From: Muricea muricata
Taxonomy: Eukaryota; Cnidaria; Anthozoa; Malacalcyonacea; Plexauridae
Assembly (NCBI GenBank): GCA_963855995.1
Contig: OY979717.1
Span: forward strand, 36,475,497-36,539,496
DNA length: 64,000 nucleotides
Reading direction: 5' to 3'
Positions 41,845 through 44,386 of the stretch are shown here, in pieces (the first letter of the stretch is position 1; every line of letters starts with the position of its first letter). The notes below the pieces were generated by a model. It was not told the origin of the DNA, made no database searches, and worked only from the letters and a program-made list of their open reading frames with translations. Made by a program: the position numbers and the translations under genes.

Positions 41845-41888
41845 TACCACCTGAAGATTCCCTTTGGATGAAACAGACTGTAGTGGTA
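41845..41888 (+). ncRNA. Hammerhead ribozyme, type I (5' repeat)
   Basis: Stem I TACCAC (41845-41850) pairs with GTGGTA (41883-41888). The core CTGAAGA (41851-41857) is followed by stem II TCC/GGA with loop CTTT and GA(A) of the second core (41870-41873). Stem III ACAG/CTGT closes on one A and gives the A15.1-U16.1 pair. Cleavage site GUA lies before 41883. All invariant core positions fit; the 10.1/11.1 pair is U-U instead of G-C. PLEs are known to carry type I hammerheads with very short stem III, thought to act as dimers. It lies about 35 bases after the ORF stop. Confidence 0.75.
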
Positions 41889-41997
41889 AGTTTTTGAGGT
41901 ATTTTGCACAATTATACATTTCGCTCTGTCTACATGTCATTGAGCACTCTTTTGTATTTCGCTAACCAAAACTAGCACATTATATCCGCACCCTACA

Positions 41998-44210
41998 TTG
42001 GTTGTGCACTCTCGTTTTCGAAATCTAATTTTCTACCTTAAAATGAGGCAATTTCGACTAGACTATTCACTGAAAAACATCCCTATACCATCAAGGGACA
42101 ACTATTTGAGGAATTTGATTGAAAAAGCGGAAAGCGTACTAAAACGTATGAGATGGAAAGCTCATTTCTTTCTAAAAGGAGAAAAAGTCAGGAAAACACT
42201 AGGAATTTCGGCCTTTCGTCTAACAAAACACCTCCCACAGTTTTGGAACTGAAACCTTTCGAAGAAGACGTTATAAAATTACTAGAAACCATTAAATTTC
42301 GAGACACAAAAGACTATTTTCAAGACACTTTGGCAAACGACCTAAAGAAAATCAATTCATCCGACAAAATGTTTGTTTTCGCCGATAAAACTAGGAACAT
42401 ATATGAAACCTCGCTCGACACATACAACAAGCTCTTGCACGACAACATCACAAAAACATATAAACACGGATCTGAGGAAAACATTTCGGAAATAAACAAC
42501 GAACTAAACCACATCGCAAATAAACTTTCGATTGGCAACCGGATTGAATGCATGAAAAAAACGCGAAGCTTTTATTTCTCTCAAAGATCATAAGGAAAAT
42601 TTTCAGACCAACCCAAAATGTCGGCTCATCAACCCAGCAAAAAGCGATTCCGGAAAAATTAGTAAATCAATTTTGGACAGATTAAACACAAAACTTCGGA
42701 CAATTTTGAACGTAAACCAATGGAGAAACACGCAAAACGTCATAGAATGGTTTGGCAGCATCGAGGAAAAAACTAGGCATTCTTTTATTTCGTTTGTCAT
42801 AGTCGACTTTTACCCGTCAATTTCAGAAAATTTACTGGACCAAGCACTATCTTGGGCCTCCAATTTGGCTGATATTTCGGACGAAGACATTTCTATAATA
42901 AAACACGCTAGGAAATCACTCCTTTTCAATCACGGAAGACCGTGGATCAAAAACAACAATAGCAATTTGTTTGATGTTACCATGGGTAGCTATGACGGGG
43001 CAGAAATTTGCGAACTAGTAGGTCTTTTCATCTTAAACCATTTAGGAAAAAAGTTTGGCAAGAAAAACATCGGCTTGTACAGAGATGACGGTTTTGGCGG
43101 TTATTAAAAACAGATCAGCACGTTTGGCAGACAAAACCAGGAAAGAGCTACACAAAATTTTCGAACAGTTTGGCCTAAAAATAACAGCAGAATCAAATTT
43201 ACACGTGGTAAACTTTCTAGACGTAACATTCGACCTTTCTACCGGAAAATATAAACCTTATAGGAAGCCCAATGACGATCCGTTATACATACACAAGCAC
43301 TCTAACCACCCACCCAGCATCTTAAGGCAACTTCCAGCATCCATCAACAAGCGCATTTCAACGCTGTCATCTGACAAACAAGTATTTGACGATGCAGTAC
43401 AAACATATCAAAACGCACTAGGACATAGCAACTTCAGCCACAAGCTGGAATACATGCCACATGTAACACAGCAGCCACGCAGGAACAGGCAACGCAACAT
43501 CATTTGGTTTAACCCTCCATTTAGCAAAAATGTCAAGACAAACATCGCACGCAGTTTCCTCAAGCTTGTAGACACGCACTTTCCAATAGGCAACAAGTTA
43601 CACAAGATTTTCAATAGGAACACAGTTAAGGTCAGTTACAGCTGCATGAACAACGTTAAGTCAATTATCACAAGTCACAACACACGCATAATTAGGAAAA
43701 GCCAACCACAAGACATTAGCGCAGAGAACTGTAACTGTAGGAACAAGCACACATGCCCATTGCAGAACAAGTGCATGAGTAAGGACATTGTATACAAAGC
43801 AACAATTTTGACAGGCAACACACAGGACACAAAGCACTACATTGGCATGACCTCAAACACATTCAAAGAGCGATACAGGAATCATATCAAATCTTTCACA
43901 CACAAAAAAATATTCGAACGAGACGGAACTTTCGAAACACGTTTGGCACTTAAAGCAAAAGAAAACAGATTTCACCATAAAATGGTCCATAATAAAAAAG
44001 TCTATTTCTTATACGGGAGGATCCAAAAGATGTAATTTATGTTTGGAGGAAAAAATCAGTATTTTGAAAGAAAAAAACAATTGCTTGCTTAACAAAAGAT
44101 CGGAAATAGTTTCGGCCTGCCAACACAAAAGCAGATTTCAGGTAAACAACCTAAACAAAGAAAGGAATGCATGCTATTCAACCACCCACGCGCCCACGTT
44201 TCCGCCTTGA
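41998..44210 (+). pseudogene. Penelope-like reverse transcriptase plus GIY-YIG (3-4 frameshifts)
   Basis: 41998-42252 is the N-terminal part (FRNLIFYLKMRQFRLDYSLK). 42153-42593 continues (FEEDVIKLLETIKFRDTKDY) and breaks just before KDHKENFQTNPKCRLINPAK (frame change near 42560). 42673-43107 holds the RT fingers and palm (LRTILNVNQWRNTQNVIEWF, SNLFDVTMGSYDGAEICELV) and the catalytic LYRDDG. One extra T at about 43091-43096 then shifts the frame. 43055-44035 carries the thumb (VNFLDVTFDLSTGKYKPY, SNHPPSILRQLPASINKRIS), then the Cys-rich linker and GIY-YIG start. The extra A at 43904-43910 shifts the last part, which would end at 44210. Losses are mostly single-base indels in homopolymers, so the element is young or some may be sequencing errors. 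Confidence 0.88.
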
Positions 44211-44386
44211 GCATAAAAGAAGCTCGCACATTTTCGAAATTTGTCTACCACCTGAAGATTCCCTTTGGATGAAACAGACTGTAGTGGTAAGTTTTTGAGG
44301 TATTTTGCACAATTATACATTTCGCTCTGTCTACATGTCATTGAGCACTCTTTTGTATTTCGCTAACCAAAACTAGCACATTATAT
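43652..44386 (+). repeat. PLE terminal repeat, copy 2
   Basis: Second copy of the repeat. The extra A shifts the GIY-YIG frame in this copy, while copy 1 stays open. Confidence 0.95.
44246..44289 (+). ncRNA. Hammerhead ribozyme, type I (3' repeat)
   Basis: Identical copy of 41845-41888 in the second terminal repeat. A transcript spanning the unit would carry both, and self-cleavage at each would release a unit-length RNA of about 2.4 kb. The release step is inferred from how tandem hammerheads work elsewhere. Confidence 0.75.

Follow-up and report, generated by a model that had tools for sequence, protein, structure and literature searches.

The window (the whole stretch of DNA analysed, 64,000 nucleotides of Muricea muricata) shows two identical hammerhead motifs, one in each terminal repeat of a transposable element. 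They are probably the paired hammerheads, minimal and of type I, of a Neptune-like Penelope element and would act together as a double hammerhead in an RNA whose copied part spans the cut. Hammerheads of Penelope elements and their action as dimers are already published, as are tails, inverted arms and partial tandems; the hammerhead seen here is genuine, an ordinary representative of a known kind, in a setting that suits the testing of an open question. Sequence comparison across the genome supports paired action of the hammerheads and speaks against the cut producing the ends of inserted copies. The genome provides many hammerhead variants, copies with an open frame of 721 amino acids, insertion ends that can be compared with the cut, and comparative evidence for pairing between two hammerheads.

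Hammerheads, terminal repeats and encoded protein

The features of the window are as follows (window coordinates):

41052..41251, no strand: assembly gap of 200 N, which conceals the true 5' end of the tandem
41252..41985, + strand: upstream copy of the terminal repeat (ORF end, hammerhead, tail), from the 735-bp alignment, its start being the assembly-gap edge
41252..41809, + strand: 3' portion of the upstream copy's ORF, open, with a Cys-rich linker (CNCR....CP....C) and a GIY-YIG-like endonuclease, from alignment
41845..41888, + strand: upstream type I hammerhead, predicted cut between 41882 and 41883, from sequence, descriptor scan and covariance model R2 (47.2 bits)
41986..44386, + strand: full 2,401-nt unit, ending in (TA)n, from repeat alignment and comparison of copies
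42043..44210, + strand: reading frame of the element, broken into five open stretches that overlap (41944-42252, 42123-42593, 42556-43107, 43046-44035 and 43851-44210)
44246..44289, + strand: downstream hammerhead, identical to the upstream one, predicted cut between 44283 and 44284, from sequence, descriptor scan and R2 (47.2 bits)
44307..44317, + strand: site A, GCACAATTATA, a 3' end of inserted copies about 34 nt past the cut and putative start of reverse transcription
44376..44385, + strand: site B, GCACATTATA, the second 3' end of inserted copies, used by the copy in the window and lying about 102 nt beyond the cut
44383..44770, no strand: (TA)n microsatellite housing the element, from sequence, with a similar flank at most 3' ends seen
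457..504, - strand: third, decayed hammerhead of another family, from R2 (46.5 bits) and sequence

Positions within the motif follow the hammerhead numbering convention; a type I hammerhead shows a CUGANGA ... GAA core, an A15.1-U16.1 pair and an NUH cleavage triplet. Both motifs show this core, with GUA as the triplet, and consist, in order, of the stem I strand TACCAC, CTGAAGA (C3-A9), T, the stem II strand TCC, the loop CTTT, GGA, T, GAA (G12-A14), ACAG, a single A, CTGT, A (A17, at the cut) and, after the predicted cut, the second stem I strand GTGGTA. The two T residues form a U.U mismatch at 10.1/11.1, and stem III contains A15.1-U16.1, C15.2-G16.2, an A-U and a G-C pair around the single A. 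The predicted cuts, before 41883 and before 44284, are 2,401 nt apart. The earlier note had described twin identical hammerheads with these stems, this cleavage site and these positions, and the sequence and the descriptor scan bear it out; its spacing of the cut sites likewise agrees with the sequence. In a descriptor scan that required the stems, the two hammerheads are the sole matches on both strands of the window, five of the seven loose core matches being rejected as lacking stems. In 300 dinucleotide shuffles of the window the scan found four relaxed-stem matches and none with a stem I of at least 6 and a stem III of at least 3. A chance origin was rejected on these shuffles and on the reversed-pattern controls in the genome given below.

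The terminal repeat measures 735 bp (41252-41985 against 43652-44386) and shows 99.86% identity, with no substitutions and one indel. Its upstream copy starts exactly at the 200-N gap, so this 5' end is not an element boundary. The 200 N of the window all lie in that gap, and both copies and the intervening stretch are thus in one assembled stretch. The gap adjoins the element, and inverted arms, as seen elsewhere, would make such a gap likely.

In the window lies a broken copy of a Neptune-like Penelope element. Locus L051 has two open copies of its frame, each of 721 amino acids, and L053 has one; the ORF starts about 160 nt downstream of the predicted cut. The motifs DIVDFYPSI and YRDDG, read from protein P0001, we take to be those of a reverse transcriptase (RT), which in Penelope-like elements is telomerase-like; the first Asp of the presumed motif A is Val in the window copy and Asp in P0001, L060, L080 and L088. 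Neither Pfam nor PDB gave an RT match for the element protein. Motifs of this presumed RT kind occur at 513 places in the genome (control, 0), and no RT relatives were found in viral contigs, bacterial genomes, phages or plasmids, as expected for an animal element. PF01541 (GIY-YIG), the endonuclease that Penelope-like elements have at the C end, matches weakly in three of five aligned sequences (Pfam, best E 2.7e-4), and that of L093 (E 6.4e-4, 20.4 bits) is below the curated cut-off of 22.6. The window's own endonuclease sequence, 47-49% identical to its relatives, has no PF01541 match, and a PDB search with the endonuclease profile gave no GIY-YIG chain. Between the RT and endonuclease parts lies the Cys-rich stretch, whose four Cys are kept in five of five aligned sequences; it is the one feature that points to a Neptune-like placement, the group being defined as in PMC3846280. 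Pseudo-LTRs, a partial tandem, an inverted arm and a tail at one end, which are Penelope-like traits, are present on other copies, and the window itself shows the tandem only, owing to the gap. A tRNA scan gave nothing of use. Downstream, at 46075-46512, the window shows an imperfect 19-bp repeat array with 16 overlapping register copies, across which long frames are open, though 19 is not a multiple of three.

Covariation and probable pairing through stem III

The earlier note had named a covariance-model search as its check and the lack of a match as a refutation. Rfam shows no hammerhead anywhere in the window at the gathering score, nor at E <= 10 in the region 41700-44400. As a control, viral contigs were searched for the exact core with the window's stem II, giving 12 loci (L001-L012). 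A stem test showed every one to be a complete hammerhead (11 of type III and one of type I); shuffled flanks of these loci passed the test in 71 of 2,400 trials. Rfam at the gathering score reported none of these 12, and its silence on the window, which formally would count against the hammerheads, is therefore uninformative; given these misses, an Rfam match was not counted as a defining type I feature. The covariance model R2, for which 12 further hammerheads of the Muricea muricata genome were used, all outside the window's subfamily, detects both window hammerheads at 47.2 bits (E 1.2e-12). On these two grounds the absence from Rfam was rejected as a refutation. Since the viral-contig hammerheads share the core, the U.U at 10.1/11.1 is found in other hammerheads too. 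The third hammerhead of the window (457-504, - strand) keeps its stems, shows two changed invariant core positions and sits in a short insert between TA tracts.

The Muricea muricata genome (453 Mb, 74 contigs) shows 1,724 matches (856 + 868) to a pattern with U.U, a nine-base stem III and GUA, the reversed-pattern control giving none over the whole genome. A wider pattern that does not require U.U gives 1,864 matches (928 + 936) and 29 in the control. U.U is thus present in 1,724 of the 1,864 wider-pattern matches, so the U-U and one-base loop, which the earlier note had taken as a variant, are present as described but are not peculiar to this copy. The short stem III form ACGU, taken from the Anolis RNA sequence that PMC11167929 gives, seldom occurs in the genome together with U.U (49 matches; control, 4). 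The sequences read were those of the first 100 places among the matches listed for each pattern.

Fourteen hammerheads from 14 loci were aligned, two of which, the window's and L061, represent the window's subfamily. All three stems covary, and 89.6% of cells are paired. The covariation score is 0.672, against a shuffled mean of 0.217 (none of 500 shuffles as high) and 0.083-0.159 in slid versions of the alignment. Pairs with a change on both sides are 11 of 13, a number reached in three of 500 shuffles, and the cells changed on both sides are 44, against a shuffled mean of 12.8; these tallies count related sequences, not events. Rows were chosen by pattern, and the core, A15.1-U16.1 and C15.2-G16.2 are invariant by construction. 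Covariation therefore backs a type I hammerhead of three helices open at stem I, two of its pairs being fixed by the search pattern, and the proposal of a minimal type I hammerhead in the terminal repeats of a Penelope-like element gains support from it. Odd members of the alignment are L086, with a weak stem I, and L092 (214-262, - strand), which has G-C at 10.1/11.1 and the stem III ACGCCGCGT and is possibly of canonical or retrozyme type. The diverged elements L060, L075, L081, L088 and L093, with 42-65% protein identity over the longer matches, carry diverged hammerheads of the same build.

Stem III is a nine-nucleotide quasi-palindrome, ACAG-A-CTGT, with a one-base centre. The innermost pair spans a single base, so it cannot form inside one hammerhead and can form only between two copies. 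The one-base loop of the earlier note is thus correct as sequence, but it cannot be closed in a monomer, where a triloop leaves stem III no more than three pairs; shuffles fold as well as the monomer (z -0.20). The innermost pair is nevertheless standard in 14 of 14 aligned rows, five of them with both sides changed. Among the 100 places listed, it is Watson-Crick in 31 of 35 distinct strings and not in the other four; among 16 distinct five-base centres from these places it is Watson-Crick in 12, which 3 of 20,000 shuffles reach. Conservation of a pair that is impossible within one hammerhead supports the dimer idea and, read as selection for pairing between two units, gives a direct handle on dimer action, as this pair matters only between two hammerheads.

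Energy modelling covered nine of the 14 aligned sequences. In all nine the modelled double hammerhead lies 7.6 to 13.9 kcal/mol below two monomer hammerheads, and in none is the hammerhead the minimum monomer fold. Some other dimer fold beats the double hammerhead in seven of nine, by 0.2 to 14.4 kcal/mol: the double hammerhead is the best dimer fold in two, within 0.2 in a third and 1.6 to 14.4 above the best in six, the window's own being 4.4 kcal/mol above. The earlier suggestion that the motif would most likely need to dimerise is probably right, judging from the stem covariation, the inner pair kept in 14 of 14 rows and the modelled double-hammerhead energies.

Insertion ends and the role of the cut

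Sites A and B are the 3' end boxes after trimming of chance TA matches. Twenty-three distinct 3' contexts were collected, alike pure-TA contexts collapsing into one, and one of them, L054, is an internal unit join. The other 22 include 12 ends at 44386 and one at 44385 (site B), seven at 44320 (site A) and two stray ends, at 44381 and 44290, so that 20 of 22 fall at A or B. TA repeats directly follow nearly all 3' ends, though not that of L063 and, in L082, only for a short distance. All 11 two-armed insertions of which both ends were seen have one A end and one B end: L035, L036, L037, L044, L049, L052, L056, L061/L062, L066 with L051/L067-L069, L073/L074 and L053/L078/L079. The arms of L066 and L051 would form one insertion, the stretch between them having been read in part. 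The one-armed copies L033, L034, L063, L065 and L082 show no second arm of at least 40 nt at 94%, and the inverted arm of L071, judged by eye and outside the count, stops a few bases short of site A. Hammerhead neighbours within 5 kb, among the first 100 listed, are minus-plus in 21 cases, plus-minus in eight, plus-plus in five and minus-minus in one. L056 (1464-1734) is a tiny two-armed insertion, with head-to-head arms of 103 and 163 nt, an A end, a B end and a whole hammerhead in each arm.

Segment starts are scattered. None of 54 distinct starts, which include the window's gap edge and a few inner deletion joins, lies within 3 nt of the predicted cut; by our own arithmetic about 0.16 of the 54 would be expected there by chance, so the zero is no proof of avoidance and bounds the share at about 5%. 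Four starts, at three loci, fall at the 5' foot of the hammerhead (44244-44246). These belong to four short copies, at L050 2001-2251, L065 1398-1540 and L071 1493-1634, which contain little beyond the hammerhead, with or without tail; L050 holds two of them, 110 nt apart. With no starts at the cut and 3' ends beyond it, the claim that a readthrough transcript would be cut into one unit is not supported in the form in which it was made. The 3' ends, about 34 or about 102 nt past the cut, imply that the copied RNA was whole at that site, or rejoined. An R2-like role of the cut in trimming the template is unlikely, since inserted copies do not commonly have the cut end as their 5' end.

We propose that each unit carries one minimal type I hammerhead near the end of the terminal repeat, which would be weak alone. 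Two such hammerheads, located on the same multi-unit RNA or on separate RNAs, would join through stem III by eight pairs flanking an A.A mismatch and would swap stem I strands. The resulting double hammerhead would have two active centres, with cleavage after A17. The RNA that is copied into DNA would run through the cut site, and copying would start downstream of the cut, at the two GCACA(A)TTATA boxes, which lie next to (TA)n whose ends may serve as primers; it would often yield two head-to-head arms.

What the cut is for admits several explanations. The one we favour most, while still holding it slightly short of an even chance, is that the hammerhead trims RNA that is not the template, freeing the 5' end of the mRNA or destroying readthrough RNA, and that the template is uncut multi-unit RNA. 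The lack of segment starts at the cut (0/54), the 3' ends beyond it and the position of the ORF start, about 160 nt after it, all agree with this, as does the finding that unprocessed RNA is the dominant substrate in Anolis (PMC11167929); such trimming alone does not explain why tandem units are closer to each other than to other copies, unless the source arrays are themselves uniform. Tandem units within one insertion differ by 0.111% (8 pairs, 7,219 bases; a ninth pair, a self-comparison, was not counted); the figure is 0.201% for inverted arms (20 pairs, some of which overlap) and 0.602% for copies from different insertions (1,469 pairs). In this comparison 15 overlapping loci were dropped, two places were merged, arms of less than 150 nt or less than 98.5% identity were left out, and the pairs are not independent. 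Somewhat less likely is that multi-unit RNA is cut by the double hammerhead to monomers of 2.4 kb, that these become circles, and that RT running round a circle passes the rejoined site and produces the tandems. The divergence values, the scattered starts and the two full units and part of a third of L051, with 0 to 2 mismatches, favour it, together with L037 (576-1686), a deletion derivative with hammerheads 528 nt apart whose deletion is common to the inverted arm and the direct units, and with the existence of retrozyme circles in animals (PMC7229834). However, a readthrough transcript of an existing tandem array gives equal near-identity, so that the divergence pattern fits circles or uniform source arrays alike, and the Anolis hammerhead is dispensable for insertion in vitro, and no reads there end at the cut (PMC11167929).

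A further idea, which we consider improbable, is that the double hammerhead is primarily a device for pairing templates: through the quasi-palindromic stem III and the swapped stem I strands it would hold two unit ends just upstream of the start boxes, a dimeric enzyme would prime one arm at A and the other at B, and the cut would free the pair after copying. If true, it would account for the presence of one A end and one B end in all 11 two-armed insertions with both ends seen, and for the retention of a ribozyme by elements whose insertions bear no mark of the cut end. That the hammerhead is a dead passenger, kept only through the youth of the copies, is hardly credible: copies of the window's subfamily are only about 0.6% apart, an identity that by itself is no proof, but diverged families keep the core and stems while the stem letters change on both sides.

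Comparison with known systems

A partial literature search gave no report recognised as dealing with this element. Minimal type I hammerheads of Penelope-like elements were described by Cervera and de la Pena (2014) and by Lunse, Weinberg and Breaker (2017), as cited in PMC7761336, PMC6466107 and PMC6155905, and Penelope-type elements are reported to cut as dimers (as cited in PMC6466107 and PMC7761336). The hammerheads of the window are like these in being of type I, in their weak or missing stem III, in their position in pseudo-LTRs and in tandem, and in the dimers proposed through the palindromic stem III end. They differ, as far as the citing texts describe the others, in the nine-nucleotide stem III with a one-base centre and in the U.U mismatch, which is the rule here.

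Animal retrozymes also show type I hammerheads in tandem, and for HHR_Amex2 a U U mismatch is described at the base of helix II, as here (PMC7229834). In the coral Acropora millepora over 6,000 type I motifs are given, all but 1,508 minimal (PMC7229834). Retrozymes, however, are non-coding, about 170-400 nt long in animals and without protein (PMC7229834), whereas the element of the window encodes a protein; with a unit of 2,401 nt and a frame of 721 amino acids in relatives it is not a retrozyme by that description.

The Neptune group shares the Cys-rich stretch between RT and endonuclease (PMC3846280), and published accounts of Penelope elements include arms placed head to head, a tail at one end and partial tandems (PMC3846280, PMC11167929). 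The tail measures about 68 nt here, against 30-40 bp given for Penelope (PMC11167929). In the Poseidon element PAc of Anolis carolinensis the hammerhead overlaps the ORF start and starts lie inside the ORF, whereas here the cut and the presumed starts precede the ORF (PMC11167929). In other respects PAc is alike: its hammerhead is near the junction of pLTR and ORF, its units are in tandem, two RT start sites define the tail, the target is AT-rich, and both target strands are extended (PMC11167929).
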